In this document: positions 16,251 through 40,600 of the stretch, piece by piece
How the letters are laid out: each line of letters opens with the position of its first letter
Position numbering within the stretch: position 1 is the first letter of the stretch
Origin: a virus
Virus record (IMG/VR): IMGVR_UViG_3300020596_000039
Coordinates: 1 to 45,389 of that record
Length of the DNA stretch: 45,389 bases
Direction: 5' to 3' (one strand)
Made by a program: the position numbers and the translations under genes
Notes under the pieces: model-generated
What the model was told of the DNA's origin: nothing
Databases searched by the model: none
Seen by the model: the letters and a program-made list of their open reading frames with translations, nothing else

Positions 16251-16423
16251 GTTAATCAGTTACACACTGGGTGACACGGTTAACTCCCGTTTGGGGGCGG
16301 GTAAACCCGAAGAAATCTATAAATAGTTAATGAGTTAATGAGTTAAGTATCTAATATAAATAATAGATATAACATTCTTTATTCTCCTATGAGCCCTAAT
16401 GTGGAATCGCGTTAAATCGTTAA
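16251..16423. other. Candidate replication origin: AT-rich divergent region with GTTAA iterons
   Basis: This stretch lies between the primase-helicase and the ParB-like gene and is far more AT-rich than its surroundings (especially 16310-16390). GTTAA occurs seven times (16251, 16279, 16326, 16334, 16342, 16411, 16419). Three copies are spaced exactly eight bases apart (GTTAATGA twice, then GTTAAG), and another pair is also eight apart. Iterons, a melting region and an adjacent initiator-type helicase are the hallmarks of an origin. Binding by either neighbour protein is inferred. Confidence 0.45.
16269..16298 (-). promoter_or_regulatory. GTGTCACCC-type promoter for the minus-strand operon
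   Basis: Reading leftward: GCCCCCAAA, 12 bases, GTGTCACCC. The predicted +1 near 16264 leaves a 37-base leader with a GGAGAG site before the primase-helicase ATG. Confidence 0.6.
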
Positions 16424-16436
16424 TCGGGTAACTCAC

Positions 16437-16466
16437 GCCCCAATTGGGACGGGGCGTGTGTCACCC
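16437..16466 (+). promoter_or_regulatory. GTGTCACCC-type promoter, leaderless start at 16471
   Basis: GCCCCAATT, 12 bases, GTGTCACCC. The ATG of the ParB-like gene follows four bases later, in the context GGTATGCA. It faces away from the matching promoter at 16269-16298. Confidence 0.6.
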
Positions 16467-16470
16467 AGGT

Positions 16471-17403
16471 ATGCAAGAGCCCGAAGTTGCAAACCTCCCG
16501 CTGAGCCAGGTCGCCGATGCAAAGTTCTTGCTGCGGCCCGTAGATCGCACGACTGCGGTCTTCACAGAACTTCTGGACTCTATCCGGCAGAACGGCCTCG
16601 CCAACTCGATCCTCGTGAGGCCCCACCCCGACGGGACGCCCGGCCACTACCAGACGGTCGACGGGATGTACCGGAAGACGTGCTGCGAAGAACTCGGGCA
16701 CACGCACATCCCCGCGATCGTTCGCGAAATGATGGACGAAGAAGTCCTCGCGTGGCAGATCAGGGCGAATGGCATCCGACCTGAAACCAAGAAAATTGAC
16801 TATGCCCGCCAGATTAGACGCATCCAAGAGTATCGCCCCGGTGTCACCCTAGCAGCGATCTCTCAGTGGATTAACAAGGCCCCGACGTGGGTCCGTCAGC
16901 AGCTCGACTTGCTCGAACTGGACGACTCCGTCCAGCAGCTCGTGGACGATGGCGAAATCCCGCTTCAGTCCGCCTACATGCTGGCCAAGGTTCCCCGGAT
17001 TCACCGGACGAACGAACTGATCGCGCAGGCCTGCGTGCTATCGGCCGCCAAGTTCAAGGCGGTCGCTGCACAGATCATCAAGAACTTCATGGAAGACGTT
17101 CGTAACGGACGCCTATCCCACAACTACAACGACAAACCGTTCACGCCCGTCGCTTGGTATCGCGGGAACCATAAGGTTCAAGCCGAGCTTCAAAACCCGT
17201 TCTTCGGCCCCGAGATCATCGTCTCGGAGAAGCTGAAGAAACCACTCGACATCTGGCGAGCCTGCCTCAAGTGGGTTCTCAACCTAGACGCCGCGAGCGT
17301 CGAGGCCGCCCGTCGTGACTACGAGAAGAACAGACCCAAACGCAACCTCATGGACCTCTACGAAAGCGAGCCCGATGAAGTAAACCAAGACCCCGATACC
17401 TGA
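16471..17403 (+). CDS. ParB/Spo0J-like DNA-binding protein 1
   Basis: A 310-residue protein started at ATG 16471 (MQEPEVANLPLS), directly behind the promoter; an in-frame TTG at 16444 would lie inside the promoter. Residues about 15-100 form a ParB N-terminal domain (LLDSIRQNGLANSILVRP, then VDGMYRKTCCEELG in the place of the usual GERR box). Residues about 120-170 look like a helix-turn-helix (VTLAAISQWINKAPTWVRQQL). The C-terminus is basic then acidic. In phages, ParB-like proteins serve in plasmid-style partition, as transcription regulators or as nucleases. Its position beside the origin candidate favours a replication or partition role. Confidence 0.7.
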   Translation: MQEPEVANLPLSQVADAKFLLRPVDRTTAVFTELLDSIRQNGLANSILVRPHPDGTPGHYQTVDGMYRKTCCEELGHTHIPAIVREMMDEEVLAWQIRANGIRPETKKIDYARQIRRIQEYRPGVTLAAISQWINKAPTWVRQQLDLLELDDSVQQLVDDGEIPLQSAYMLAKVPRIHRTNELIAQACVLSAAKFKAVAAQIIKNFMEDVRNGRLSHNYNDKPFTPVAWYRGNHKVQAELQNPFFGPEIIVSEKLKKPLDIWRACLKWVLNLDAASVEAARRDYEKNRPKRNLMDLYESEPDEVNQDPDT

Positions 17404-17456
17404 TCCCCACCGCATTCTCTCCCGCCTATATTTCTTCTCTGCAAAGGAGTACTCAA

Positions 17457-18179
17457 TTGAGTACCGATATCGCTGTCCTTGATCTCAGTCAACTTCCTTC
17501 CACGTCGGTCGGGTCGCAAGACACGTTCGACGATCTCGCCAGGGGTGCAACCTTCCTTGGCCGCTTGCAGTTGTTCGGCTCGAACAGCAAGCAGTGTCAG
17601 AAGGGCTTGATTAAGCCCGGCCACTTCGGGATTCCCGTGTCGGACGACGAAGTCGTCGACCTGGGTGCCTCGTGTGACATTCTGCCGCTCGCTCGCCGTC
17701 CGAAGGCGATCGACATGAGCGATTCGCCCGTTGTCGCCAGCTATGACGAGAACGACCCGACGTTCCAGGAAATCGCGGAACGCTCCAAGGTCCAGAACTC
17801 GAAGTGCCAGTTCGGCCCGAGCTTCCTCGTCATCGAGCGCAACACCGGTCGCATGCTCGAATACTTCCTGGGCTCGCCGACGCATCGGCCCGAGGCCAAG
17901 AAGATTTACCCGAAGCTCCCTTTGACCCAGGCGGACATTGCCGCCCGGAAGCTGGACGAGGAACCGCACACCGCGCTCCCCGTCACGCTGAAGTCGAAGT
18001 TCATCGAGAAAGAGTTCTCGTGGTACGTCCCCGTCGCGCTCGACTGCTCGACTCCGTTCACGAAGCTGCCGCCGATGGCGCAGATCGCGGCCGAGATTCA
18101 GAAGTTCATCAACGAGAAGGGCGGCGTCGAGGCCGATGACGACGCGCCGGCCCTGAAGAAGTCTGGACGCAAGCGGTAA
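17457..18179 (+). CDS. Conserved hypothetical phage protein, possibly ssDNA-binding
   Basis: A TTG start is supported by a strong AAAGGAG seven bases upstream. The 240-residue protein begins MSTDIAVLDLSQLPSTS and contains a compact core with paired aromatic/cysteine positions (NSKQCQKGLI, FGPSFLVIERNTGRMLEYF), then a C-terminal tail mixing acidic and lysine-rich segments (GVEADDDAPALKKSGRKR). The setting in replication genes, strong translation signals and charged tail would fit a ssDNA-binding or recombination accessory protein, but I do not recognise the family. Confidence 0.55.
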   Translation: MSTDIAVLDLSQLPSTSVGSQDTFDDLARGATFLGRLQLFGSNSKQCQKGLIKPGHFGIPVSDDEVVDLGASCDILPLARRPKAIDMSDSPVVASYDENDPTFQEIAERSKVQNSKCQFGPSFLVIERNTGRMLEYFLGSPTHRPEAKKIYPKLPLTQADIAARKLDEEPHTALPVTLKSKFIEKEFSWYVPVALDCSTPFTKLPPMAQIAAEIQKFINEKGGVEADDDAPALKKSGRKR

Positions 18180-18187
18180 TTTTGTAC

Positions 18188-18217
18188 GCCGCAAACTACT
18201 AGGTGACCGTGTCACCC
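18188..18217 (+). promoter_or_regulatory. GTGTCACCC-type promoter within an imperfect palindrome
   Basis: GCCGCAAAC, 12 bases, GTGTCACCC. The promoter is embedded in a near-perfect inverted repeat, CTACTAGGTGAC (18197-18208) and GTCACCCTAGTAG (18211-18223), which could be an operator or a transcribed hairpin. The predicted +1 is near 18222. Confidence 0.55.
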
Positions 18218-18240
18218 TAGTAGCATCTGTTCTCTCTCGG

Positions 18241-18276
18241 AAGACCGGAGCGGGACATCCCGCTCCGGTCTTTTCT
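18241..18276 (+). terminator. Strong intrinsic terminator or attenuator
   Basis: Perfectly paired arms of about 14 bases (18241-18254 with 18259-18272, core GACCGGAGCGGGA) are followed by TTTTCTCTT. It sits between the promoter at 18188 and the gene at 18297. It may end the upstream transcript or attenuate the new one. Confidence 0.75.
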
Positions 18277-18296
18277 CTTCGCACCCCGTCCCGCCC

Positions 18297-18818
18297 ATGC
18301 GTTTCGACGCCATCCTTATCCAGCAGCCGAGCGTTTCCTTCGGCCCCTTCCTGTCCCTCACTCGCGAGGCGATGGGCTACAGCGTTGTGGCTAAATGCGA
18401 TGCGAGCGGCCGGCAGCTCAGCGAAACCGAGCGGTTCGTCTCGTGCCTGGAAGCCCTACGCGATCCGAACGCCATCCCGGCCCTTTGGCCGCACCTGCTG
18501 AATCACGTTTCGTTTAGCGTTGCCATGGTCGCGGATGACCGCGACATGATCGAGATTCTTGAACTCGCTTCGGGCATGCACTTCGTCCGATCCGAAACCC
18601 GCGTTCGCGGGATCGACATCGCCGTCGTTACTGGGACGCTCGCGCAGTGGCGCGAAGCCGGCAAGAACGGCACCCAGCAAGGCGGCCCCGCCCAGGTTGC
18701 ATTCTGCAAGATCATCACCCTGTTCGATCAAGCCGGCCTGAACGTCTGGAAGGGCTTCAACTGGAAGTCGGACAACTCGAACAAGGGACTCTTTTTAATT
18801 GAGGACAGACGTGCCTGA
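18297..18818 (+). CDS. Hypothetical protein upstream of the helicase
   Basis: A 173-residue soluble protein with no recognised domain. Mixed alpha/beta predicted sequence; segments FVSCLEALRDPNAIPALWPHLLNHVSFSVAMVADD (split here by eye into helices) and DIAVVTGTLAQWREA suggest a small globular fold. The C-terminal portion GLNVWKGFNWKSDNSNKG is basic. No clear Shine-Dalgarno element precedes the ATG. Its end overlaps the GTG of the helicase gene, so the two are translated together and may act together. Confidence 0.6.
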   Translation: MRFDAILIQQPSVSFGPFLSLTREAMGYSVVAKCDASGRQLSETERFVSCLEALRDPNAIPALWPHLLNHVSFSVAMVADDRDMIEILELASGMHFVRSETRVRGIDIAVVTGTLAQWREAGKNGTQQGGPAQVAFCKIITLFDQAGLNVWKGFNWKSDNSNKGLFLIEDRRA

Positions 18819-20814
18819 AACTGTCACCTGTAATTTTCTCGTCTACTCCAAGAAGGGCCGCGCTCTTCGCGAGAAGGCGGTCCTGCGCTACTCCAAGGGA
18901 CGCATTGAGTTCCTGGCCTCGCCCTTCGCGCTGAAGGACGAGATCAAGGCCATGCGTGGCTCGAAGTGGCATGGCTACATCGAGGGCGACAACCGCAAGA
19001 TTTGGTCCGTCGAGGACTGCCCCCGCAATCGACTGCAACTCGCCTACCTCCAAGGCGAGGACGTGTACGCCTGGTTCGATCGCGACATCGTCGAACACGA
19101 GTTCCCCGATCGCGGCCTGCCGCTCTACCAGCATCAGAAGGACATGGCCAACAGCGCGATGACCTACCACTTCAATATCTGGGGTGCGGAAATGGGTCTG
19201 GGCAAGACCCGGTCGGCCATCGAAGTCATGGACCTGTCGGGTGCGGCGGACTGGGTTTGGATTGGCCCGAAGAAGCCGATCAAGGCCGTCAAGCGCGAGT
19301 TCATCAAGTGGGGACTCAGCGAGAAGATCAACCTTCAGACGTTCACCTACCAGGCGTTCGTCGAGTACGTCGACAAGTGGAAGCCTGGCGACCTGATCCC
19401 TCAAGGGCTGATCTGCGACGAACACACGAACCTGAAGACCTGGGACTCGCAGCGGAGTCAAGCCGCGCAGTTCATGGCCGACAAGATTCGCGAGAAGTAC
19501 GGCTACGAAGGCTACGTGATCCTGATGTCCGGCACGCCTGCACCCAAGACGCCGGTGGACTGGTGGAGCCCGTGCGAGATCACGTTCCCCGGATTCCTCC
19601 GCGAGGGTTCGGAGCGGGCGTTCAAGCTCCGCATGGCCATCGTCGCCCTCCGCGAAAACTATGGGGCCGGCGGCCAGTTCAACGACCTGCTGGGTTGGAA
19701 GGACGACGAGAGCAAGTGCGCCACCTGTGGCTGCTATCCCGACGAACACGGGATGGAAATGGACGACTATCACCCGTGGACCAAGTCGGTCAACGAAATC
19801 GCCGAGTTCCACGAACGCACGAAGGGCCTCGTCGTCATCAAGTTCAAGAAGGACTGCGTGGACCTGCCCGACAAGGTGTACCGGGTCATCCAGTGCGAGC
19901 CCAAGCCCAGCACGCTCCGCGTGGCCCAGGCGCTTCTGGCGTCCAGCGAGCGGGCCATCACGGGGCTCACGCTGCTCCGCGAGTTGAGCGACGGCTTCCA
20001 ATACCGCGAGATTCAAGAAGGCATGATGCCTTGCAACGTCTGCTACTCGCCGGGCGAGCCTGTCCAGGACAAGGACGGTGAGGGGTTCACGTACCCGCAC
20101 GCGGGGCCGGTCGGCACGATCAAGGAATGGTTCGACCCTCGCGACGAAACCCGAACCTTCTCGTCTGTGGACATGATGCGGGACGAAGTAGTCTCCGGCC
20201 TTGAGTGCCGCGACGTGACTTGTCCGAAGTGCGATGGGGACAAGGAAATCCCTCGCATGGTCCGCATCACGAAGGAAGTCCCGTGTCCGAAGGAAGACGC
20301 GCTCATCGACCTGCTCGGCGAGAACGAGGAAGTCGGACGCATTGTGATCTTCGCCGGATTCACTGGATCAGTGGATCGCTGCGTGAACATCTGCCTACGT
20401 GAAGACTGGCACGTTGTTCGGTGCGACGGTCGTGGCTTCACGATTCTCTATCGCGATAGCGACGGCACGATCAAGTCGAACACCAAGACGGACGCCCTCG
20501 ACTACTGGGCGGACCTGAAGGGCAATGCTCGCGTTGCGTTCGTTGCCCACCCTGAGTCGGGCGGTATGGGTCTGACTCTCACCGAGGCGTGTACGGCCGT
20601 CTTCTGGTCGAACTCTTTCAAGCCTGAGTTCCGCACGCAATCGGAAGACCGCATTCACCGTCTCGGCATGGACGAGAACCGTGGCGCGATGATCGTCGAT
20701 CTCGTCCACCTGCCGACTGACGAGCGGGTGCTGGAAGTCCTCCGCAAGAACCGTGAACTCGAATTGCTGACGATGGGCGACTTCGCCAAAGACTTGCAGC
20801 TTGACGCTGCCTAA
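18811..20814 (+). CDS. SNF2-like superfamily 2 helicase
   Basis: GTG 18811 (MPETVTCNFLVY) is the best start: GAGGACA lies seven bases upstream and the previous stop overlaps it. The 667-residue protein carries Walker A GAEMGLGKTRS near residue 124, a DEHT box (ICDEHTNLK, about residue 201), SGTPAP (about 240) and the motif VI element SEDRIHRLGM (about 611), the SNF2 pattern. Several Cys clusters (CATCGCYP, CNVC, CPKC) lie between the two helicase lobes and may bind zinc. Phage proteins of this class act in recombination-dependent replication or repair by remodelling DNA. The DEHT variant replaces the common DEAH/DEGH. Confidence 0.8.
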   Translation: MPETVTCNFLVYSKKGRALREKAVLRYSKGRIEFLASPFALKDEIKAMRGSKWHGYIEGDNRKIWSVEDCPRNRLQLAYLQGEDVYAWFDRDIVEHEFPDRGLPLYQHQKDMANSAMTYHFNIWGAEMGLGKTRSAIEVMDLSGAADWVWIGPKKPIKAVKREFIKWGLSEKINLQTFTYQAFVEYVDKWKPGDLIPQGLICDEHTNLKTWDSQRSQAAQFMADKIREKYGYEGYVILMSGTPAPKTPVDWWSPCEITFPGFLREGSERAFKLRMAIVALRENYGAGGQFNDLLGWKDDESKCATCGCYPDEHGMEMDDYHPWTKSVNEIAEFHERTKGLVVIKFKKDCVDLPDKVYRVIQCEPKPSTLRVAQALLASSERAITGLTLLRELSDGFQYREIQEGMMPCNVCYSPGEPVQDKDGEGFTYPHAGPVGTIKEWFDPRDETRTFSSVDMMRDEVVSGLECRDVTCPKCDGDKEIPRMVRITKEVPCPKEDALIDLLGENEEVGRIVIFAGFTGSVDRCVNICLREDWHVVRCDGRGFTILYRDSDGTIKSNTKTDALDYWADLKGNARVAFVAHPESGGMGLTLTEACTAVFWSNSFKPEFRTQSEDRIHRLGMDENRGAMIVDLVHLPTDERVLEVLRKNRELELLTMGDFAKDLQLDAA

Positions 20815-20832
20815 CCCTTCTCTGAAAACTAA

Positions 20833-22122: not shown

Positions 22123-22126
22123 TCCC

Positions 22127-22435: not shown

Positions 22436-23250
22436 AACGACTCGCCCAGTTCGATACGTTCTCGATCGACGTGAACAAGGTGTTCATCGACAGTGACTTC
22501 AACTGTCGTGGGTACTTCACGCTCGAATCTATATCGGACTTGGCGGCCTCTATTCGAGAACTCGGTCTTCAAACTCCCGTCGTCGTTCAACCCTACGCCC
22601 ATGAGCAATATGACTACCGGCTAATCGCAGGCTACCGCCGCTTTGCAGCTTGCACCCGCCTGCTCGGTTATACGGAAGTCCCCGGAACGATCCGCACCGA
22701 TCTGACCGAAGAACAAGCCCGCATCCTCAATCTCACTGAGAATCTCGAACGCCGCGATCTCAACATCCTCGAAGAAGCTAAGGCAATCCGCCACACGTTC
22801 CCCAACGGTAGCGTTCGGGCCATCGCGAAGGCCCTCAACCGCCCGGGCCGCTGGGTGCATGCCCGGCAGTTGTTGCTACGGTTGCCCGAGGAAGTTCAGC
22901 AGATCGCCGCCGCCGGGTGGCTGAAGCAGTTGAGCATCGTCGCGCTTTCGCAACTGACCTCGCCCGAGGACCAGATCGAGGGTGCCAGGCAAATCCTGGC
23001 GGCGAAGCAACTCAACTCACGGAACCAGACGAACCTGCCCAAGAAGTATCGAGCCAAGTACGAGGGCAGGAAAACCAAAGAGCAGATCACGAAGATAGTC
23101 GCCCGCATGCTCGGCGAGGGCGTGTACGGCGGGATGCCCCGCGTGGCCATGTGGTGTGCGGGAAAGATAACAGACGCCGATCTCATGGCGGATATTAAGG
23201 AACGGATCAGTGAACAAGAACAACTCCAAGAAGACCCCCACGACGACTGA
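22432..23250 (+). CDS. ParB/Spo0J-like DNA-binding protein 2
   Basis: A 272-residue ParB homolog closer to the canonical family than the one at 16471. The N-terminal domain has SIRELGLQTPVVVQP, the box LIAGYRRFAACTRLLGY and LNLTENLERRDLNILEEAKAI. A helix-turn-helix follows (VRAIAKALNRPGRWVHARQL, about residues 127-146), then a Lys-rich C-terminal region. Canonical members bind parS-like DNA and CTP for segregation; phage versions may also be regulators. No parS palindrome was recognised. It is translationally coupled to the acidic protein upstream. Confidence 0.8.
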   Translation: MKRLAQFDTFSIDVNKVFIDSDFNCRGYFTLESISDLAASIRELGLQTPVVVQPYAHEQYDYRLIAGYRRFAACTRLLGYTEVPGTIRTDLTEEQARILNLTENLERRDLNILEEAKAIRHTFPNGSVRAIAKALNRPGRWVHARQLLLRLPEEVQQIAAAGWLKQLSIVALSQLTSPEDQIEGARQILAAKQLNSRNQTNLPKKYRAKYEGRKTKEQITKIVARMLGEGVYGGMPRVAMWCAGKITDADLMADIKERISEQEQLQEDPHDD

Positions 23251-23596
23251 AGACCTCATCGCTCGCGGCGGCTTCATGATATCGAAGATGCGGCCTGATA
23301 CGGTCGCACTAATCGAAACGACTGTAGGGGTTCTGTATACCCTTCGCCTCGTGGACCCCATCACTAATCTGATTCATTTCACTTCTACAGACGAAGGCAT
23401 GCGCCAAAGCGGGCCTCAGCCGTGTCACTTTAGTAGCTCTTGGACGGATCGAACTGGCCGAATCGCCATCCGCGATTGGGTGATCAAAGATTGCATGTTT
23501 CTGCTGAAGTTTAAACACGAAGGATGGCTCTCGCACCCTGTGCGGTCATGCCTGCTTGAAGCCCCCAACTGGAAGTACGAAGTCATTAGCCCCTAA
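23210..23596 (+). CDS. Hypothetical protein
   Basis: A GTG start with AAGGA nine bases upstream; the gene overlaps the ParB-like gene by 41 bases. The 128-residue product is beta-rich with no signal peptide and contains VALIETTVGVLYTLRLVDP, a Trp/Ser segment (CHFSSSWTDRTG) and a short C-terminal helix. No family was recognised. It is the last gene before the structured RNA. Confidence 0.5.
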   Translation: MNKNNSKKTPTTTEDLIARGGFMISKMRPDTVALIETTVGVLYTLRLVDPITNLIHFTSTDEGMRQSGPQPCHFSSSWTDRTGRIAIRDWVIKDCMFLLKFKHEGWLSHPVRSCLLEAPNWKYEVISP

Positions 23597-23601
23597 CGAA
23601 T

Positions 23602-23738: not shown

Positions 23739-23747
23739 TCTTTAATT

Positions 23748-27015: not shown

Positions 27016-27540
27016 ATGATTCTGCAATTCCAGCCGAACCGCTGGTCATGCCTCGCGACTTCGTTCGCGATGGCTCTCGACATCCCCGTGGCACAGTTCT
27101 TTGATCTGGTTGGCCACGACGGGAGCGAGATTCTTTACCCCGAGCTACCCGAGCCCGTTTGCAGACGGGGCATCCACGTCCAGGAAGCGATCGAAGTCGC
27201 CTGGACCCTCGGCTACTCGTCTACGCCGTTCGAGCTATTCCCGCAGTCTCGCACGAGCCCCGGCGGCCCTACGCACGTCGTCAAGTTCCTGGCGGGCAAC
27301 TGGGATCGCTTTTCTTCCCAGATCGGATGCCGCAAAGGCGTCATCGAGTGTGTAACCCAGATAGGCAGCGGGCACGCCGTCGCCTTCCTCGAAAACGTCA
27401 TCTACGACCCGGCCTCCCCGATCTTGTATCCGTGGAGCCGGGACGCGATGGAGCAACGAGGGCTTATTACACGCTCTCTCTGGTGCCTCGAAGCCCGTGC
27501 CGAACAAACCCAAGAATCTCGACGATCGGCTGTGGCTTGA
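27016..27540 (+). CDS. Papain-like cysteine peptidase-type protein (putative)
   Basis: A 174-residue protein with the beginning QFQPNRWSCLATSFAMALDI, where a Cys sits at the start of a helix as in papain-like folds. A later segment, GSGHAVAFLENVIYDPASP, supplies a His and an Asp at the usual spacing from that Cys. The set C-H-D matches C39/NlpC-like or transglutaminase-like folds. Activity is unproven; the family may be pseudo-enzymatic. It starts right after the small membrane protein and overlaps the sigma-like gene by 44 bases. Confidence 0.45.
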   Translation: MILQFQPNRWSCLATSFAMALDIPVAQFFDLVGHDGSEILYPELPEPVCRRGIHVQEAIEVAWTLGYSSTPFELFPQSRTSPGGPTHVVKFLAGNWDRFSSQIGCRKGVIECVTQIGSGHAVAFLENVIYDPASPILYPWSRDAMEQRGLITRSLWCLEARAEQTQESRRSAVA

Positions 27541-28183
27541 GCCTACGACGAAGGCGTCCAACGAAGAACTATACCCGCTCGTGGCCCTCGGCTGCGAGAT
27601 CGCTCGCGAGAAGATAATTCTTGCGAATAAGGGCCTTGTCATCTTCCTCGTCGAGCGGTTCCTGATCTTCATGCCTGGCTATCGCCGGCTGCGCGACGAA
27701 CTGATTCAGGCGGGGATGGTCTCGCTTGTGGAAACCGTGGATCGGGTCGCGCGAGGGCTCGAAGAGGGTAGCACGCAGCTATTCTCGCTCCGCATCCAAC
27801 GGGCGATTGGGGAAACGATCGAGGCGGACGGTGTAGTGCCCGTGCCCGAAAGTACGTCTCGCATGAAGCGGGTGAAGGGCGAGTCGATTGGACTTAAGCG
27901 GGTCAATATGATTGACCCCGATGGCTACCCCGACAACAAGCCGTCGAGCCGTCGTCTCAAGTACTTCGCCTACGACCCCCGCGGGATGCAGGCCGTTCGC
28001 GAAATGCTTGAAGCGGCCTGTGAGGACGATACCGACCGCGAGATTATGCGACTCCGCGAAGAAGGATACGTGGACCGGGAGATCGCAAATGTACTCGGCC
28101 TCTCGCTCACGACGGTGTATGTCATGCGTCGGGCGATGTATGCCCGGTTCCTCGAACTCTCCGGCTGGAAAGGTGAAGCGTGA
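27497..28183 (+). CDS. Sigma-70 family-like transcription factor
   Basis: A 228-residue protein. Residues about 37-75 resemble sigma region 2 (helical ILANKGLVIFLVERFL, then DELIQAGMVSLVETVDR, the conserved DLiQeG.igL pattern). The C-terminal 50 residues resemble region 4 with a helix-turn-helix: DREIMRLREEGYVDREIANV followed by LGLSLTTVYVMRRAM. This arrangement fits a compact alternative sigma factor. The start is GTG 27497 with a weak ribosome site. Together with the ECF-like factor at 39473 it is a candidate for recognising the GTGTCACCC promoters. Confidence 0.7.
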   Translation: MPNKPKNLDDRLWLEPTTKASNEELYPLVALGCEIAREKIILANKGLVIFLVERFLIFMPGYRRLRDELIQAGMVSLVETVDRVARGLEEGSTQLFSLRIQRAIGETIEADGVVPVPESTSRMKRVKGESIGLKRVNMIDPDGYPDNKPSSRRLKYFAYDPRGMQAVREMLEAACEDDTDREIMRLREEGYVDREIANVLGLSLTTVYVMRRAMYARFLELSGWKGEA

Positions 28184-29093: not shown

Positions 29094-29095
29094 CG

Positions 29096-29124
29096 CCCCC
29101 GGATCGGCTGGCCATGTGTAACCC
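29096..29124 (+). promoter_or_regulatory. GTGTAACCC-type promoter (weaker) before the ligase
   Basis: GCCCCGGAT, 11 bases, GTGTAACCC. The ligase ATG at 29129 follows at the same offset (13 from the start of the box) as at 16471 and 37984. Confidence 0.45.
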
Positions 29125-29128
29125 TAGT

Positions 29129-30241
29129 ATGCCGAGAAAACAATCCAACCGCCGAGAGTTCCTTCAACTCGCCAACAAGTACCGCCCCGGCAAAGACAAA
29201 GTCGGCGGATGGTTCCTGAGCGAAAAACTAGATGGCACTCGTTGCCTCTGGGACGGCGGGATCAGTCGGGGTTGCCCGACTGACAACGTCCCCTGGGCCT
29301 CGCTCATTAACCCCAAGACGGGGAAGTACAAGGACAAGATCAAGCCCGTCGCGACGGGGCTGTGGAGCCGCTACGGGAACCCGATCATGGCTCCCGACTG
29401 GTTCTTGAACAAGCTGCCGTGCATCCCGCTGGATGGTGAGCTTTGGGCTGGCCGAGGGAAGTTCCAACTCTGCCGCTCGATCTGCGGCGGTGATGATCCC
29501 GACCCCCGGTTCGACCAGATCAAGTTTGCCGTCTATGGCATGCCGCCGGTCACGGGGCTGTTCAATGACGGCGAGATCAAGAACGCCAACTTCCACGCGA
29601 CCTTCAGCTACGCCCACTGCGTAGCCTGGGTCGAAGGTCGGCAGCGTGAGGCGGGGATCGAGCTGTTCACGCTCGCCGAGGACGCCCTGTTCTTCCATGA
29701 ACTTGCCGCCCTGCAACGCGACCTGGATGGCCTCGAAGACTTCGTCTTCATGCACCGTCAAGTGAAGCTCCCCGAGGACCACGACGAGGCCGCTGCTGCG
29801 GTCGAGATTGAACTGAACAAGATCATCGCCCTGGGCGGCGAGGGCCTCGTCCTGCGTCACCCGTCGTCGCCGTGGACTCCGAAGCGGGTCAGCTCGCTGC
29901 TGAAGTACAAGCCGTTCGATGACGACGAAGGCACGCTCGTTGGGTTCACCAGCGGTCGGGAGACGGGCAAGGGCTCGAAGCACCTGGGCAAGATTGGGGC
30001 CTTGATCCTGGACTACCAGGGCAAGCGTCTCGAACTCAGCGGCCTCACTGACGAAGAGCGTGAGTTCGCCACGCCTGCGATGTCGACGTATGCCGCCGCC
30101 AACCCCGGCGAGAACATGCCTCCCGCCACCCAAGGCAAGCACTTCAAGGTTGGCCAGAAGATCACCTTCCTGTTCCGCGAGCTTTCGGATGATGGCATCC
30201 CGAAAGAAGCTCGCTACTTCCGAAAGCGAGACGACGAATGA
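29129..30241 (+). CDS. ATP-dependent DNA ligase
   Basis: A 370-residue ligase. Motif I is SEKLDGTR near residue 33 (the AMP-accepting Lys), motif III LDGELW, motif IV GGEGLVLR, motif V LLKYKPFDDDEG. The C-terminal ~90 residues look like an OB-fold domain (KIGALILDYQGKRLEL). It seals nicks in replicated DNA. ATG 29129 (MPRKQSNRREF) is preferred because it falls at the conserved offset from the promoter; an ATG at 29114 would overlap the promoter. The stop overlaps the protease start (ATGA). Confidence 0.85.
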   Translation: MPRKQSNRREFLQLANKYRPGKDKVGGWFLSEKLDGTRCLWDGGISRGCPTDNVPWASLINPKTGKYKDKIKPVATGLWSRYGNPIMAPDWFLNKLPCIPLDGELWAGRGKFQLCRSICGGDDPDPRFDQIKFAVYGMPPVTGLFNDGEIKNANFHATFSYAHCVAWVEGRQREAGIELFTLAEDALFFHELAALQRDLDGLEDFVFMHRQVKLPEDHDEAAAAVEIELNKIIALGGEGLVLRHPSSPWTPKRVSSLLKYKPFDDDEGTLVGFTSGRETGKGSKHLGKIGALILDYQGKRLELSGLTDEEREFATPAMSTYAAANPGENMPPATQGKHFKVGQKITFLFRELSDDGIPKEARYFRKRDDE

Positions 30242-30873
30242 TTCGTGCATTGATTCTTACGCTGCTGCTCGCCACGTCTGCCTTCGCTGAAGGTCCGACG
30301 TGCCGCGTGGTGGCCGAGCATGACAAGTTCAGCGACATGGGGACCGGAGTGCTGCTCCGCGACAACCATGTCATCACCTGCCGCCACATCTTCGACGACG
30401 GAGCTGACCTGATTTGGGTCCACTTCGACATCGACGGGGAGGTCGCCAAGGCTCGCGCCACGATCGTGGCCCGCGACGACCTGCGTGACATGGTCTTGCT
30501 GAAGCTCGACCGCGACGTGCCGGTGGCTGGCGTGGGTGTTGGTCCCGTGCCGGCCGTCGGCGACACGCTGAAGCTCTGCGGCTACGGAACCTGCCCGCCG
30601 TGGCCCGGCACCTGGCGGTGCGTTAGCGGCGAGGTCACGAGTCAGTACCTCGCCGGCGACGGTTGCCATGAGTTCGAGCTTGATCTGATCGCCCGCTCGG
30701 GCGACTCCGGCGGCCCGATCTTCAATGCTGATGGTCAGCTCGCGCTGGTTGTCTGGGGCTGTAATGCGGGGCGGAAGGACCGCGTTGGTCCGCCGCGATC
30801 GTTCGGCCACCCGCCGCAGGACTTCCTGAAGAAACACATGCCCAAATACGAACTCTTCGAGGCTACCAACTAA
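30238..30873 (+). CDS. Secreted trypsin-like serine protease 1
   Basis: The 211-residue protein has a typical signal peptide (IRALILTLLLATSAFA then a cleavage-like AFA-E). The chymotrypsin-fold triad is visible: His in VITCRHIFDD (about residue 46), Asp in RDMVLLKLD, and Ser in SGDSGGPIF. A second, unrelated-looking member of the same fold is encoded at 36998. The cell target is unknown; a role at the envelope or against host exported proteins is inferred. The stop overlaps the next ATG. Confidence 0.75.
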   Translation: MIRALILTLLLATSAFAEGPTCRVVAEHDKFSDMGTGVLLRDNHVITCRHIFDDGADLIWVHFDIDGEVAKARATIVARDDLRDMVLLKLDRDVPVAGVGVGPVPAVGDTLKLCGYGTCPPWPGTWRCVSGEVTSQYLAGDGCHEFELDLIARSGDSGGPIFNADGQLALVVWGCNAGRKDRVGPPRSFGHPPQDFLKKHMPKYELFEATN

Positions 30874-31484
30874 TGAAACCATTCGGCTATCGCGGCGTGA
30901 TCAAGCGTGATGATCTGAACGCCAAACCCTACCGCGCAAATATCCGGGTTCAGCAAAAGAATCTCTTCCTCGGATACTTCGAGACTGCCGAAGACGCTGC
31001 CCGAGCCTACGACAAGGCGGCACTTCAATACTTCGGAGTGCTTGCCTACTTCAACTTCCCCGGTGAAGTCGGAGTAACTGAGCCAGAGACGGACAACAAG
31101 TTTGGCTACTCGTATATCCTCGACATGTACGAGTGTGCTGCCGGCACTTGCGACGACCTGGAATTGCACTACCGATTCCTCGAACGCCTCGTCGAGTCCC
31201 TCGGGATGGACAAGATGTCTGCCCCGCTCGTGATTCATGCTCCAACGCTCAAGGGTGAAGAACTCTACCCCGACAAGGCCGGTGTGTCGGGATGGATTCC
31301 CTTGATCCAAAGCGGGATCAGCATTCACTCGATTGAACCGACGCACTTCGCGACGCTCGACGTGTACTCCTGCAAGCCCTTCGTGCCCGAACAAGTCACC
31401 CGCGTTGCTGCGGCCACGTTCCGTTACGAGAAGTACGAGGACCATTTTATGGATCGCGGACTTCGCTACCCCAAGACGACCTAA
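30873..31484 (+). CDS. AP2 domain fused to S-adenosylmethionine decarboxylase-like domain
   Basis: A 203-residue fusion. Residues about 4-62 match the AP2 DNA-binding module found in phage HNH endonucleases (GYRGVIKRD..., LGYFETAEDAARAYDKAAL). Residues about 75-203 match the SpeD family: FGYSYILDMYEC, GVSGWIPLIQSGISIHS and LDVYSCKPF. By alignment to Thermotoga SpeD, Ser139, Ser147, His152 and Cys167 equal Ser55, Ser63, His68 and Cys83 at identical spacing, so pyruvoyl formation could still occur; the residue before the self-cleaved Ser is Gln146 instead of Glu. The usual substrate is S-adenosylmethionine, but some SpeD relatives are reported to decarboxylate amino acids. The domain pairing is odd. 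Confidence 0.7.
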   Translation: MKPFGYRGVIKRDDLNAKPYRANIRVQQKNLFLGYFETAEDAARAYDKAALQYFGVLAYFNFPGEVGVTEPETDNKFGYSYILDMYECAAGTCDDLELHYRFLERLVESLGMDKMSAPLVIHAPTLKGEELYPDKAGVSGWIPLIQSGISIHSIEPTHFATLDVYSCKPFVPEQVTRVAAATFRYEKYEDHFMDRGLRYPKTT

Positions 31485-31486
31485 CC

Positions 31487-33383: not shown

Positions 33384-33606
33384 AGCTGCCCCTCTCTCTG
33401 GTCCCAGCCTGGCGAACATCTTTGAAGAACTCTTCAGGATGGCCAGTGTGGCCGGCGACGGCGTGGTGAGCGTCAGTCTGGACTACCAGACCGACGAAGC
33501 CACTGACGACGACCTTATCCCTGTTATCACATTATCTCTTCGACCGGCGGTGTTAGATGTTCGATCAAGTGTGGACGTTCCTTCAGGACCAGTTGCAGAA
33601 CAATAA
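33370..33606 (+). CDS. Hypothetical protein overlapping the BCS1-like gene
   Basis: ATG 33370 opens a 78-codon frame that fills the otherwise empty 33384-33556 interval. Codon third positions look coding in the middle (GDGVVSVSLDYQTDEATDDD). It overlaps its neighbours by 14 and 50 bases. The last third may be non-functional, since it lies inside the next gene. Confidence 0.45.
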   Translation: MGRLKAAPLSGPSLANIFEELFRMASVAGDGVVSVSLDYQTDEATDDDLIPVITLSLRPAVLDVRSSVDVPSGPVAEQ

Positions 33607-34798
33607 CGTCTTCAGCGGCGTTGCGTTGGTCGGTGCAATGGGCGGCATCATCGCGGGTCTGCGATCCTATCCGGCCCGCATTTACAACTGGTCCGTCCAA
33701 CGGTTGTTCATGGAGTTCGAGATCACGATCAAGGATCGTGCCTTCGAGTGGGTCGAAGAGTGGCTGGCTGCACAGCCGTACACCCGCAATCGAGCCCGCT
33801 GGTTGACCGTGCGGACGGAACGGAAAGGCCGCAATGATCGCCCGCACATCATCCTGTCGCCCGCCCCTGGCGTCCACTGGCTGTTCTGGAAGGGCTACTT
33901 CCTGATCGTGAATCGTGACCGCAAGGAAACGACGACCACGGGGGGTCAGACGCAGACGCCGGTTGAACGCGAGACGTTCATCATCAAGATTCTCACCCGT
34001 AACCGCGATTCCGTCATCCATCTGCTTCACGAGGCTCGCGATGTCGCGACCCCGCCGGACGAAGAACGGGTGGAAGTGATGACGCCCGAGTATGGCGCTT
34101 GGGATGACGCGGTTCGCCGCCGTCCTCGTCCGCTCGAATCCGTGATTCTGGCGGACGGAGTGGCTGAGAACCTGATCGGCGACGTTGCGAAGTTCCGCGA
34201 GTCGCATAAGTGGTACACGGATCGAGGGATTCCCTACCGCCGTGGCTACCTGCTGCATGGTCCGCCGGGATCGGGCAAGTCGTCGATCGTGTTCGCGATC
34301 GCGTCCCATCTGGGCCTGGACATCTGCATGCTCAGCTTGAGCGACCCGAATCTGAATGACAAGGAACTGCGGAAGCTGCTGTCGAACGTCCCTCAGAACT
34401 CGCTCGTGCTGATCGAGGACGTGGACTGTGACTTCCATCAACGCGAGGCCACCGAGGACAAGGAAAACAAGCTCACGTTCTCGGGCCTGCTCAACGCTCT
34501 GGACGGCGTGGCCGCGAGCGAGGGCACCATTCTGTTCATGACCAGCAACTTCCCGGAACGGCTTGACCCAGCCCTGGTCCGTCCGGGTCGTTGTGACATG
34601 AAGGTGTTCATCGGGTACCCGGAGTTGACGCAGAAGGAACGCATGTTCCTGCGGTTCTACCCGGATCATGCGTTCCTCGCCAAGGGATTCGCCGACGTGG
34701 TGACCGGCGACGTGAGCATGGCCGCCATTCAGGGTCACTTCCTCAAATACCGAGACTGCCCGCACGAGGCGCTGTCCCATTACCAGGAAATCCAATGA
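33557..34798 (+). CDS. BCS1-like AAA ATPase
   Basis: A 413-residue protein with an N-terminal transmembrane stretch (FSGVALVGAMGGIIAGL), a BCS1-type N domain (segments WLTVRTERKGRN, PGVHWLFWKGYFLIV, KILTRNRDSVIHLL) and a C-terminal AAA domain. Walker A is LLHGPPGSGKSS (about residue 233), Walker B LVLIEDVDCD (about 284), then GLLNALDGVAASEG, a sensor Asn in FMTSNFPERLDP and the Arg finger region LVRPGRCDMK. This order is that of BCS1, the mitochondrial translocase for folded Rieske protein. Phage and bacterial relatives exist with unknown substrates. The overlap with the next gene is ATGA. Confidence 0.75.
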   Translation: MFDQVWTFLQDQLQNNNVFSGVALVGAMGGIIAGLRSYPARIYNWSVQRLFMEFEITIKDRAFEWVEEWLAAQPYTRNRARWLTVRTERKGRNDRPHIILSPAPGVHWLFWKGYFLIVNRDRKETTTTGGQTQTPVERETFIIKILTRNRDSVIHLLHEARDVATPPDEERVEVMTPEYGAWDDAVRRRPRPLESVILADGVAENLIGDVAKFRESHKWYTDRGIPYRRGYLLHGPPGSGKSSIVFAIASHLGLDICMLSLSDPNLNDKELRKLLSNVPQNSLVLIEDVDCDFHQREATEDKENKLTFSGLLNALDGVAASEGTILFMTSNFPERLDPALVRPGRCDMKVFIGYPELTQKERMFLRFYPDHAFLAKGFADVVTGDVSMAAIQGHFLKYRDCPHEALSHYQEIQ

Positions 34799-35846: not shown

Positions 35847-35847
35847 C

Positions 35848-35877
35848 GCCCCAAAAACCATTTGCAGCGTGTCACCC
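35848..35877 (+). promoter_or_regulatory. GTGTCACCC-type promoter
   Basis: GCCCCAAAA, 12 bases, GTGTCACCC. Predicted +1 near 35882 gives a 25-base leader with an AGAGAG site before ATG 35907. Confidence 0.6.
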
Positions 35878-35906
35878 TAGTGTAGCTAATCCCTTAGAGA
35901 GTAATC

Positions 35907-37870: not shown

Positions 37871-37901
37871 GCATCAACGAAACAACACTCCCAAACCCAA
37901 C

Positions 37902-37945
37902 AAGCGGCGGCATGGTTCATCCCATGCCGCCGCTTTTCTTTTTAT
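37902..37945 (+). terminator. Strong intrinsic terminator
   Basis: A perfect 14-bp stem (AAGCGGCGGCATGG with CCATGCCGCCGCTT, 37902-37915 and 37922-37935), a six-base loop and the tract TTCTTTTTATT. Confidence 0.85.
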
Positions 37946-37949
37946 TGGT

Positions 37950-37979
37950 GCCTCAATCGGCCTTGCCGTCGTGTCACCC
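37950..37979 (+). promoter_or_regulatory. GTGTCACCC-type promoter, leaderless start at 37984
   Basis: GCCTCAATC, 12 bases, GTGTCACCC. The ATG of the next small ORF follows four bases after the box, directly behind the terminator. Confidence 0.6.
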
Positions 37980-37983
37980 AGGT

Positions 37984-38082
37984 ATGCACAACACCTACGA
38001 GTTTACCGAACACGCGCAGCCACCAGGTTACGACCACGTCATCGTGCGGGCCAATGGCGAGTTCATTGGATGCAAGCTATGA
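37984..38082 (+). CDS. 32-residue protein from a leaderless start
   Basis: ATG 37984 sits at the conserved offset from the promoter box. The peptide (MHNTYEFTEHAQPPGYDHVI..) is aromatic and His-rich with a C-terminal VIVRANGEFIGCKL strand pair. No Shine-Dalgarno element is possible. A seven-codon frame (38079-38099) overlaps its stop. Function unknown. Confidence 0.5.
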   Translation: MHNTYEFTEHAQPPGYDHVIVRANGEFIGCKL

Positions 38083-38104
38083 AATACTTTTATGAGTAAC
38101 TTTC

Positions 38105-38275
38105 ATGATCGAGATTCCCCTTTGGCAATTCGAGGCTGCCGTCGTCACTATCGCCTGCGTGGTGATGGTGCCGCTCGGTTACTGGGTGGGCTACCGCGAC
38201 CGCTCTCGTCGGGCGTTCATGGACGGCTACCACACGGGCCGCAAAACGAAAGTCGTGAGCCCGTTCGATGACTGA
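38105..38275 (+). CDS. 56-residue single-TM protein
   Basis: ATG 38105 to TGA 38273-38275. The transmembrane helix covers about residues 11-30 (AAVVTIACVVMVPLGYWVGY), followed by an Arg/Lys-rich cytoplasmic tail. The stop region overlaps ATG 38268 of the next gene by eight bases. Function unknown. Confidence 0.55.
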   Translation: MIEIPLWQFEAAVVTIACVVMVPLGYWVGYRDRSRRAFMDGYHTGRKTKVVSPFDD

Positions 38276-38522
38276 CATTGTTCGATTGCAACGCAAGAAG
38301 AAGCTCCCGCCTGAGTTCATCAGGCTGACTGCGGAGTTTCGCGCCGCCGGGTTCAGCACGGGCTTCTCGATCGGCGTCAATGGCGTGATTGAGCCAGCAA
38401 GAGCGGCGAAGCTGGCAGGGCCGACCCACAAGCGAGTCATCAAGCGGAATGGCACGATGGCGAAGTGGCTGAAGGCGATCAACAAGCGATACGGAGCGTG
38501 GTCGAGGACTTACCGAGCATGA
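38268..38522 (+). CDS. Hypothetical basic protein
   Basis: An 84-residue protein with a Lys/Arg-rich start (MTDIVRLQRKKKLPPEFIRL) and a basic C-terminus (HKRVIKRNGTMAKWLKAINK). Possibly nucleic acid binding. The stop overlaps the phosphoesterase start (ATGA). Confidence 0.5.
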   Translation: MTDIVRLQRKKKLPPEFIRLTAEFRAAGFSTGFSIGVNGVIEPARAAKLAGPTHKRVIKRNGTMAKWLKAINKRYGAWSRTYRA

Positions 38523-39130
38523 GCGAAACCTACGTCATGGCCGATCCGCACATGGACCGCGATGGTGGTAACACCGTCGGGCGGCCGTTCGCGGACACTG
38601 CGGAAATGTCCCGCGAGATCGTGGCGCAGGTCAACTCGCGCGTGAAGCGAGTCGATCGGCTGATCATCGTCGGCGACTTCAGCTTCCGCGACCCGGTCTA
38701 TTGGCGTGGCCGACTGCGATGCAACGCGATCCTGTGCGTAGGGAACCACGACAACTGGCCTAAGAGTGAGCGAGCGTTCGGTAAGTTCCGCCAGAATCTC
38801 TATCAGTATTACGACGGGAAGCTGAACGGGCACCGCTGCTTCTTCAGTCACTACCCCACGCTGTACTGGCCCGCGAGTCACTACGGAGCGATGCACTGCT
38901 TCGGCCACGTCCACGATCAACGCACTGAGACGATCGAGGCGATGCTACCCGACGCTCGCATGATGGATGTTGGCGTTGACGCCGCCTTCCGTCTGCTCGG
39001 TAAGTACACCTGTTTCCACGAGAAGGAAATTTACGACATCCTTATCCAACGCCCCGGCCACGACCCTGTCGAGTGGTACGAAGCGCGGCGTGGCAAATAC
39101 AAGGAGGACCACGATGATCAATCTACATGA
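38519..39130 (+). CDS. Calcineurin-like metallophosphoesterase
   Basis: The start at 38519 (MSETYVMADPHMDRDGG) is set by the ATGA overlap. The 203-residue protein has the full set of metal ligands: MADPHMD (D-x-H), IVGDFSF, VGNHDNWP, FFSHYPT and GHVHDQR. It is small, like the yfcE/T4-type phosphodiesterases that cut cyclic or linear nucleotide diesters. It could act on host signalling nucleotides, but the substrate is unknown. It differs from the larger HTH-linked phosphoesterase at 20833. Confidence 0.75.
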   Translation: MSETYVMADPHMDRDGGNTVGRPFADTAEMSREIVAQVNSRVKRVDRLIIVGDFSFRDPVYWRGRLRCNAILCVGNHDNWPKSERAFGKFRQNLYQYYDGKLNGHRCFFSHYPTLYWPASHYGAMHCFGHVHDQRTETIEAMLPDARMMDVGVDAAFRLLGKYTCFHEKEIYDILIQRPGHDPVEWYEARRGKYKEDHDDQST

Positions 39131-39212
39131 GAAGACGCTGGTTGTGCATAGTTCGTGCACCCTCACAACCGTTACAACCGTTACAACCGTTATAACCGCC
39201 CCACCCGTGTAA
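39114..39212 (+). CDS. Short Thr/Val-repeat peptide (leader-like)
   Basis: ATG 39114 is preceded by a perfect AAGGAGG at ideal spacing. The 32-residue peptide ends SCTLTTVTTVTTVITAPPV; nine of its residues are Thr and six Val. The repeat comes from a 9-bp tandem DNA repeat (ACAACCGTT, about 39173-39199). It sits upstream of the regulatory region of the sigma factor gene and resembles amino-acid leader peptides, though no attenuator hairpin was recognised. Confidence 0.5.
   Translation: MINLHEKTLVVHSSCTLTTVTTVTTVITAPPV
39173..39199 (+). repeat. 9-bp tandem repeat (ACAACCGTT)
   Basis: Three consecutive near-identical 9-bp units, with a fourth degenerate copy (ATAACCGCC) after them, inside the Thr/Val leader peptide. 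The unit encodes Thr-Thr-Val. Such repeats vary in copy number by slippage. Confidence 0.6.
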
Positions 39213-39222
39213 TCCCACCCAG

Positions 39223-39400
39223 TGGTCGAAAATCGCTGAAATTAAATATGACTCTATGCACCACAACGCTCCCGCACCGTGTAACCCTCTGTGTGCAAGG
39301 TATGGTCGAGTTGTGTGATTTGATTCTGGTCAAAAATCGACCATAATTAGTACAAAAATCGACCAGCGTGGCTTGATTCTGACCAAAAGCATATTATTGT
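39223..39400 (+). promoter_or_regulatory. Regulatory region of the ECF-like sigma gene
   Basis: This gap without a gene holds two tandem sigma-70-like promoters: TTGATT (39320) with 17 bases to ATAATT (39343), and TTGATT (39373) with 16 bases to TATTGT (39395). Repeats around them: TGGTC or its complement GACCA occurs six times (39223, 39303, 39327, 39339, 39361, 39381). The direct repeat CAAAAATCGACCA occurs at 39331-39343 and 39353-39365, 22 bp apart. One pair forms the inverted repeat TGGTC/GACCA. This suits a repressor or activator operator. Confidence 0.5.
39258..39287 (+). promoter_or_regulatory. Weak GTGTAACCC-type element upstream of the sigma gene
   Basis: GCACCACAA, 12 bases, GTGTAACCC. 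The first box is a poor match, the second is exact apart from one base. If real it could let the sigma factor autoregulate. Confidence 0.3.
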
Positions 39401-39472
39401 TAAGTTAGGTAATGAATCTAACGAGCCTTGCAACTTATCTCTTTCTAATCTGACTTACCATGGCGGTACCCG

Positions 39473-40192
39473 ATGGTTTCTTCGCTTGACGACAATGCGC
39501 TTTATACCCTCTATCGGGATTGTCCCCAAGGGGAGGGCCGCGAAGCGTTTGACGAACTGGCCCGCCGGCACCAGCAACGGTTGAAGAACCGCATGTGTAG
39601 GGCGCTGTATAAGATGACGACCGCTGCCGAGGACATCGTCCAAAACGTCTTCATGTCGCTGATGCAGCAGGCCCATAAGTTTGACCCCGCCCGGCACGAC
39701 GTTGTAGGATGGATGAACTGGCTCGCCGATAACCGCGCCCGCAATGAGAAGCGTGACCGCTTCCGTCGGCCCGCCACCGAAACGGACTTCTTTTGCCCTG
39801 GACAAACCGCCACCAATAGCCACCCAATGCGTACTGATGAAATGGGGATTGAGGGTGGCAACCACGGTGATAGCCTGGAAGTAACGCTTCTGACTCGCGA
39901 GCAGAGCCCCGAATTTGGTGCCAACCGCGAAGAGTTGATTGATGCGTTCTGGACCTATGTCGACACCTTGGAGCCCAAGTTCCGCGATACCCTGGTTCTA
40001 TTGCTCGTCGATGGGCTGTCGCCGAGGGAACTGGTCAAAGCACTCGGAATCGACCGTAGCACGGTGCTTCGACGGCTGAAGATGCTGCTCCCGAAGCTCC
40101 GGGCCGCCGTCGGCGACGAGGTCATCGACGCGCGGCGACGCCTGGAACGCCGTGCCACGAAGCGGGCGGTGCGTATCCCCTACTGTGCCTAG
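39473..40192 (+). CDS. ECF-like RNA polymerase sigma factor
   Basis: A 239-residue protein with sigma region 2 near residues 20-100 (AAEDIVQNVFMSLMQQAHKF, GWMNWLADNRARNEKRDRFR) and region 4 near 180-225 (FRDTLVLLLVDGLSPRELVK, ALGIDRSTVLRRLKMLLPKL), joined by a flexible linker with no region 3, which is the ECF layout. The C-terminal ~25 residues are highly basic. It probably directs host RNA polymerase to phage promoters, perhaps the GTGTCACCC family. It is preceded by 260 bases of repeat-rich control DNA. No anti-sigma gene is recognised next to it. Confidence 0.75.
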   Translation: MVSSLDDNALYTLYRDCPQGEGREAFDELARRHQQRLKNRMCRALYKMTTAAEDIVQNVFMSLMQQAHKFDPARHDVVGWMNWLADNRARNEKRDRFRRPATETDFFCPGQTATNSHPMRTDEMGIEGGNHGDSLEVTLLTREQSPEFGANREELIDAFWTYVDTLEPKFRDTLVLLLVDGLSPRELVKALGIDRSTVLRRLKMLLPKLRAAVGDEVIDARRRLERRATKRAVRIPYCA

Positions 40193-40218
40193 TAATCCCA
40201 CAACTCTGAGAACTCCAC

Positions 40219-40500
40219 ATGCGTAAAACTCTCCTCATCACCCTCGCCTTGTTCGTCTCTTCTCCGGCCCTCGCCGCCGTCACCCCCATGAGGCAAGTCG
40301 CCCCGCGACCGAACTGCTTCCGTGGCTCGCAGGCGGTGATCTTCTACGGCGGGTCGAGATATCGCCAACGGGACATCGTCTACTACCAGCCGTCCTACTC
40401 CCCGCCTCGCTACTACGGCAACGGCAATTCGGGCAACAACTCGGCCTACAACCCGAACCCCGAACAGCCCGTCGAGATCATCAACCCGTTCGTGAAGTAA
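40219..40500 (+). CDS. Small secreted Tyr/Pro-rich protein
   Basis: The 93-residue protein has a signal peptide (MRKTLLITLALFVSSPALAA) and a mature part rich in Tyr, Pro, Asn and Arg (YGGSRYRQRDIVYYQPSY). No catalytic motif. It follows the ECF sigma gene by 26 bases and is the third exported protein of the window. A surface or periplasmic role is inferred. It ends before a terminator. Confidence 0.55.
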   Translation: MRKTLLITLALFVSSPALAAVTPMRQVAPRPNCFRGSQAVIFYGGSRYRQRDIVYYQPSYSPPRYYGNGNSGNNSAYNPNPEQPVEIINPFVK

Positions 40501-40532
40501 CGGGCCACTCTCCACCACCATAATTGGACCTC

Positions 40533-40566
40533 AAGACCCAAGGATTTCCTTGGGGTCTTTTCTTTT
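40533..40566 (+). terminator. Intrinsic terminator
   Basis: Stem AAGACCCAAGGA/TCCTTGGGGTCTT (40533-40544 with 40547-40559, one bulged G) followed by TTCTTTTG. Confidence 0.75.
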
Positions 40567-40570
40567 GTGT

Positions 40571-40600
40571 GCCGCAAACACGATCGTCGTCGTGTCACCC
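40571..40600 (+). promoter_or_regulatory. GTGTCACCC-type promoter before the amber ORF and ClpP-like gene
   Basis: GCCGCAAAC, 12 bases, GTGTCACCC. The first box is identical to the copy at 18188. The predicted +1 is the A of ATG 40605. Confidence 0.6.

Follow-up and report, generated by a model that had tools for sequence, protein, structure and literature searches.

The window analyzed here is the whole of IMG/VR virus record IMGVR_UViG_3300020596_000039, 45,389 bases of DNA from an uncultured phage that carry tail genes and replication genes. It contains a repeated bipartite element in which a first box, GCCCCAAA, and a second box, GTGTCACCC, are separated by 12 nucleotides (nt). This motif is real, and its observation in an earlier, sequence-only reading is confirmed. 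The features of the sites provide good support for the view that they are promoters of a non-sigma-70 type. The best reading, which we hold with moderate confidence, is that they would be used by host RNA polymerase carrying a phage sigma factor encoded at 27497.

A bipartite element at the heads of transcription units

All six copies that the sequence-only reading had described, with their exact 9-12-9 spacing, are present. When the copies are aligned on box 2, their first boxes read GCCCCCAAA, GCCCCAATT, GCCGCAAAC, GCCCCAAAA, GCCTCAATC, and GCCGCAAAC, each followed by 12 nt and then by GTGTCACCC. The consensus, extended to the probable start point, is GCCCCAAA-N13-GTGTCACCC-TAGT-A(+1)TG. Additional bases conserved 3′ of box 2 are (T/A)(A/G)GT(A/G)TG. 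The sequence GTGTCACCC occurs seven times in the window, and the seventh occurrence (16841) is itself part of a weak full site.

A weight matrix was built from the six strong sites, and 30 shuffled windows served as background. The strong sites score 33–47, versus a shuffled-window maximum of 14.2. A scan of this kind had been proposed earlier, and within the window it yields six further sites. Five of these, with second boxes starting at 27350, 29116, 16841, 23422, and 43386 on the plus strand, lie above the shuffle maximum. The sixth is the weaker copy already noticed at 39258 (box 2 at 39279), whose score of 11.6 is just under that maximum. The copy at 29096 had been credited with an 11-nt gap, and this gap becomes the usual 12 nt once box 1 is set to start at 29095. 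The resulting sites are as follows.

16262..16298, minus strand: strong site; box 1 GCCCCCAAA at 16298-16290, box 2 GTGTCACCC at 16277-16269, predicted +1 at 16264; proposed to drive the primase gene (16227-13540).
16437..16473, plus strand: strong site; predicted +1 on the A of the ParB-like start codon (ATG 16471, leaderless); forms a divergent pair with 16262..16298.
16820..16856, plus strand: weak match within the ParB-like gene, possibly due to chance.
18188..18224, plus strand: strong site; predicted +1 at 18222; 5′ of the 18297/helicase operon.
23401..23437, plus strand: weaker site, GCGCCAAAG-N12-GTGTCACTT; between 22432 and the DNA polymerase gene, at a place shared with class-M elements of relatives (see below).
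27329..27365, plus strand: weaker site, GCCGCAAAG-N12-GTGTAACCC; 134 nt 5′ of sigma gene 27497, within the open reading frame (ORF) 27016-27540.
29095..29131, plus strand: variant site, GCCCCCGGA-N12-GTGTAACCC; predicted +1 on the A of the DNA ligase start codon (ATG 29129, leaderless); class-M syntenic place.
35848..35884, plus strand: strong site; predicted +1 at 35882; between methylase 35109 and gene 35907; class-M syntenic place.
37950..37986, plus strand: strong site; predicted +1 is the A of ATG 37984 of a short ORF (leaderless).
39258..39294, plus strand: weak site, GCACCACAA-N12-GTGTAACCC; 181 nt 5′ of ECF sigma gene 39473; score within the shuffle range.
40571..40607, plus strand: strong site with the top matrix score; predicted +1 at 40605; 122 nt 5′ of the ClpP-like protease gene 40727.
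43365..43401, plus strand: weaker site, GCACCAAAC-N12-GTGTAAACC; 95 nt 5′ of 43494.

A loose two-box pattern gives 11 matches in the window, whereas 200 second-order shuffles average 0.015 matches and never exceed 1. All 12 sites are co-directional with the next gene, including the sole minus-strand site, which faces the minus-strand primase gene. Taken alone, the divergent pair matches at 21/34 positions in an ungapped self-comparison, which is not above shuffles, and support for the pair comes from the matrix evidence. When the exact 15-base pattern was sought across all viral contigs, 55 single matches were found, which is approximately the estimated chance level, and no contig contained a repeat.

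The six strong sites and those at 29116, 39279, and 43386 are intergenic, whereas three sites added by the matrix are inside reading frames: 16841 within the ParB-like gene, 27350 within ORF 27016-27540, which is conserved, and 23422 within ORF 23210-23596, which is conserved only weakly. The tail module is indeed free of copies, since no score above shuffles occurs in positions 1-13,500. Terminator stems are located just 5′ of the 37950 and 40571 copies, and a strong hairpin just 3′ of the 18188 copy.

18241..18272, plus strand: hairpin with a 14-bp stem plus UUUUCUCUU, terminator- or attenuator-like (z −4.1); ∼19 nt 3′ of the +1 predicted for site 18188.
37902..37935, plus strand: 14-bp terminator just 5′ of site 37950.
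40537..40554, plus strand: terminator-like stem just 5′ of site 40571.

The hairpin at 18241 is located between the predicted +1 at 18222 and gene 18297, where it could be an attenuator or the source of a short RNA. Separately, an A+T-rich stretch with overlapping inverted repeats (16337-16400) divides the two divergent promoters and is a possible origin or regulatory region.

Predicted start points and promoter type

At three sites, an ATG start codon (16471, 29129, and 37984) is located exactly 13 nt past the first G of box 2, in the context GTGT(C/A)ACCC-NNGT-ATG. These start codons were assigned by an independent codon-model gene caller, and no Shine-Dalgarno sequence is present at any of the three. 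The start of the ParB-like protein matches the N terminus of its ortholog (MQEPEV versus MQDKAAD in L061). For the ligase, comparison with orthologs permits no later start ahead of the conserved RREFLQLA. An ATG in the same position at 40605 opens an ORF of only two codons (ATGCAATAG). If the element is a promoter, then an ATG at this fixed distance places +1 at or very near the start codon. Box 2 would then span −13 to −5 and box 1 −34 to −26, which is sigma geometry, and leaderless mRNAs are predicted. This arrangement suggests that the mRNAs beginning at 16471, 29129, and 37984 are leaderless.

The sequence-only reading had noted a spacing like that of −35 and −10 elements but boxes unlike those of sigma-70. 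No match to the TTGACA-17-TATAAT consensus coincides with any site. A repeated motif with −35/−10 spacing at phage operon heads, as found here, is characteristic of promoter sets that depend on a phage sigma factor (phiEco32/7-11 type). Promoters of extracytoplasmic function (ECF) sigma factors have AAC at −35 and CGT at −10 as hallmarks, and a swap of the region-2 loop alters −10 specificity (PMC8103513). The window sites resemble them in −35/−10 spacing, in an A-rich −35 (CAAA, often CAAAC), and in a CGT-like −10 (CGTGTC). CAAAC is found at 3/6 strong sites (CAAAA, CAATT, and CAATC at the other three), and CGTGTCA at 5/6 (TGTGTCA at 16458). In contrast to ECF promoters, the −35 of the window is CC-rich (GCCCCAAA) with a variable AAC, the −10 is long (GTGTCACCC), and protein 27497 is too divergent for ECF model cut-offs.

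Related phages have different elements at equivalent positions

A search with the DNA polymerase identified 41 relatives, with best-segment identities of 38% to 58% and extensive synteny with the window. The window motif was not found in these 41 genomes, and the matrix scan, productive within the window, gave no score above shuffles by a clear margin among them. Elements native to the relatives were sought in the better-assembled genomes with a codon-model gene caller and pairwise comparison of upstream regions. A naive gene caller combined with plain expectation maximization had given, for some genomes, either no motif at all or nothing but Shine-Dalgarno contexts.

The elements of these genomes are genome-specific and fall into two classes. 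In every complete primase/ParB-like intergenic region examined, the class-E element is present as two divergent copies (for example, TGGGAAACTGCGAGCTTTTGGCAGTCTTGTATAGGTGTC in genome G002), with 26–30 of 34 positions matching from copy to copy versus shuffle maxima of 21–25. A third copy lies 5′ of a ∼182-amino-acid protein with a CRVHGG motif (protein X) in exactly the 4/13 genomes where that protein was found. The class-E set consists of exactly the primase, the ParB-like gene, and this protein (L116-L120, L121-L125, L108-L111, L145-L149).

Class M is a separate element that heads gene blocks in four places: just past the 18297 ortholog and ahead of the genes for DNA polymerase, ligase, and the 35907 ortholog. 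Related phages therefore have promoter-like elements at equivalent positions, namely four syntenic operon heads. Robust class-M elements, with zero matches in shuffled genomes, are present in G022 (CTCCAAA-N12-CGGCAGTCTATC, five copies), G002 and G009 (CTCCAGA-N15-CGATCTCCCAG, four copies each), G021 (CTCGGAATT-N8-GTGTCCGACGTAC, five copies), G014 (GCNCACAA-N8-CGTTTTACGACTCTCTATGTG, six copies), and G006. The motifs of G016 and G007 are weak and were excluded from this count. Window sites 23422, 29116, and 35869 occupy three of the class-M places, and 18209 is located just before 18297 rather than just after it. A single window motif covers both class-E and class-M places.

With the register set on box 1, most class-M −35 boxes resemble (A/G)CTCC(A/G)(A/G)A. 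Examples are ACTCCAGA, ACTCCAAA, ACTCGGAA, GCTCTCGA, and GCTCTAAA, to be compared with GCCCCAAA in the window. Nearly all −10 boxes open with CG and then diverge. Such a pattern, in which the −35 theme is common and the −10 varies, is known for ECF sigma factors.

Two relatives have additional features. The class-M element of G014 (L134-L137), which continues with GAGA, matches the T7 promoter at 18/23 positions (0/2000 shuffles). It occurs at six sites, such as 13268 and 46441 on the minus strand of a 69.5-kb record in which no T7-type polymerase was found. G021 (L145-L149) carries a further repeated element, TTGACTTTCGCCTCTTCTGACGTATGCTTGAATAG, which is sigma-70-like and located 5′ of a separate gene block (minus strand of the record, 77683, 79434, 83903, and 87047).

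A candidate reader and a proposed mechanism

Two genes of the window encode candidates for the protein that reads the sites.

27497..28183, plus strand: phage sigma factor (regions 2 and 4), the proposed reader; syntenic in relatives.
39473..40192, plus strand: second sigma factor, ECF-type, the alternative reader; not found in relatives.

Orthologs of 27497 are present in at least 34 relatives, in the same place between 27016 and 28180. They are only 15–31% identical to the window protein, versus mostly 40–70% for neighboring core genes (tblastn). When a profile of the family alignment is compared with PDB, the best match is a sigma factor (1.2e-21), and the match to RpoD spans regions 2 and 4. 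Individual family members match Sigma70_r2, Sigma70_r4, and Sigma70_ECF, each weakly. The AlphaFold model of 27497 has two confident domains and a loose linker (mean predicted local distance difference test score, or pLDDT, 82.6; predicted template modeling score, or pTM, 0.55), and its fold matches chains of sigma-32, SigA, sigma-S, and sigma-E. By profile, fold, and position, the identity of the 27497 family as a sigma factor is established, as are the sites, their statistics, geometry, and orientation, and the four syntenic equivalents. A phage-encoded sigma factor is the most likely reader of the sites, and its assignment to 27497 is probable.

Under the proposed mechanism, the sites would be ECF-like −35/−10 promoters in which box 1 (GCCCCAAA, −34 to −26) serves as the −35 and (C)GTGTCACCC (−13 to −5) as the −10. 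Host core RNA polymerase with 27497 would bind them, region 4 contacting box 1 and region 2 contacting box 2. Initiation would occur at the purine of TAGT-A/G and would switch on the primase gene, the ParB-like gene, the helicase operon, and the genes for DNA polymerase, ligase, 35907, and the ClpP-like protein, among others. At 16471, 29129, and 37984, initiation on the start codon would produce leaderless mRNAs. The start points, leaderless translation, polymerase and sigma assignment, and timing are what we infer from the sequence.

Several observations weigh against the assignment to 27497. As a single sequence, the protein falls short of the curated cut-offs in Pfam and NCBIfam; with TIGR02937 it scores 23.9 against 42.9 bits and does not reach the ECF family cut-off. 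The primase/ParB promoter motif of relatives differs from their ligase/polymerase motif, whereas the window uses a single motif. Furthermore, the second sigma factor, 39473, is in the window only. The main weakness is that sigma and promoter similarity are uncorrelated among 12 non-redundant relatives (Mantel test, r about 0), a comparison of low power with approximate motif registers. The lack of correlation is the same whether region 2, region 4, or the recognition helix is compared. Co-evolution of the recognition helix with the −35 box, convincing by eye for G000/G022, failed the same test. This negative result implies either that small changes re-specify the sigma factor or that the reader is different (a host sigma factor, or 39473 in the window). 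The proposal of an alternative, probably phage-encoded sigma factor is upheld in part: the promoter type is well supported in silico by geometry, co-direction, +1 on three start codons, and equivalents in relatives, and 27497 is a more probable reader than 39473.

Other possible readers

We judge it unlikely, though it is the strongest alternative, that the same promoters are read by 39473 as a sigma factor acquired by the window phage. This protein clearly belongs to the ECF family, passing the superfamily cut-off with 74.5 versus 42.9 bits (TIGR02937). Both it and the exact motif are found in the window and in none of the relatives, save one marginal 60-residue match to 39473 in G005. No relative was found when 39473 was compared with viral and genome contigs and the DNA polymerase with genome contigs. 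A newcomer that took over both classes might also leave a single motif. The site at 39279 lies upstream of the 39473 gene, but its score is in the shuffle range. Relatives that lack 39473 keep the same promoter map, similar −35 boxes, and the 27497 sigma factor, which makes a shared factor more parsimonious.

An alternative host sigma factor, to which the promoters of each relative are fitted in its own host, is an improbable reader. Different hosts would account for genome-specific motifs without co-evolution, in keeping with the negative Mantel test. Each host would have to supply a suitable sigma factor at infection, however, and nearly all relatives have a phage sigma gene at this one location.

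It is more doubtful still that the sites are operators of a phage repressor or activator that overlap promoters and diversify like immunity specificities. Genome-specific sites at fixed positions do resemble heteroimmune operator sets, ParB-like DNA-binding proteins are encoded, and the 18188 copy is partly palindromic. Two short boxes, a random spacer of 12–13 nt, an orientation fixed by the gene, and +1 on ATG are nevertheless traits of promoters, and neither an integrase nor a repressor was recognized among the scanned proteins.

Promoters of a T7-type single-subunit RNA polymerase whose gene would lie in the part that the record lacks are hardly credible: the T7-like element of G014 is countered by a window motif that matches the T7 consensus at 11/23 positions, equal to shuffles, by a box 1 at −34 that falls outside T7 promoters, and by a tblastn search with T7 RNA polymerase that was empty in 13 genomes, several of 60–90 kb (the window record itself being probably incomplete). 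A PF00940 family scan was also empty, but its positive control likewise gave no signal.

Other features of the record

No terminase, portal, or capsid family was recognized among the window proteins scanned, and relatives reach 60–90 kb; the window is therefore probably a partial genome. The protein encoded at 30873-31484 appears by eye to have an AP2-like N-terminal stretch, fused to a domain that resembles adenosylmethionine decarboxylase (NCBIfam TIGR03330, below cut-off). The gene at 33557-34798 encodes an AAA ATPase (phrog_7485) that weakly matches the NCBIfam entry for the anti-phage ATPase IteA.

Comparison with known systems and significance

Phage sigma factors such as T4 gp55 and SPO1 gp28 redirect host core polymerase to private promoters, and the system proposed here would act in the same way. 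The promoter sequences of those phages are unrelated to those of the window, and T4 late promoters have no −35. The closest precedent is phiEco32/7-11. The late promoters of phage 7-11 and the middle/late promoters of phiEco32 are served by the phage sigma factors gp47 and gp36; the promoters occupy similar genome positions with dissimilar sequences, and the sigma factors are only 15% identical (PMC8948821). Shared with the window group are a phage-encoded sigma factor, bipartite promoters (GTAAtg-(16)-aCTA in 7-11), and conserved positions with differing sequences. The phages, sigma factor, and motif are different, and transcripts were mapped in phiEco32/7-11. Here, turnover extends over at least six genomes and two promoter classes, with possible leaderless starts. 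The mode is known from phiEco32/7-11, but this is a separate family, and the effect is seen in many genomes.

We tentatively propose that in this phage family the promoter map is fixed while its code is replaced at every copy between one phage and the next, and that two classes do so in parallel (primase, ParB, and protein X; replication genes). Possible causes are re-specification of the sigma factor by few residues, host adaptation, or selection against interference between co-infecting relatives. Change in a regulator with many sites is expected to be difficult, since every site must change along with it. These phages offer a natural series in which promoters share their operon heads (four or more), beside a syntenic sigma gene, but have almost completely replaced sequences. 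With a dozen sigma/promoter pairs, which may be mutually orthogonal, coordinated rewiring of a regulon becomes testable, and the prediction of leaderless starts is precise enough to be checked by 5′-end mapping. The family could thus be used to study how the code of a whole control network changes.

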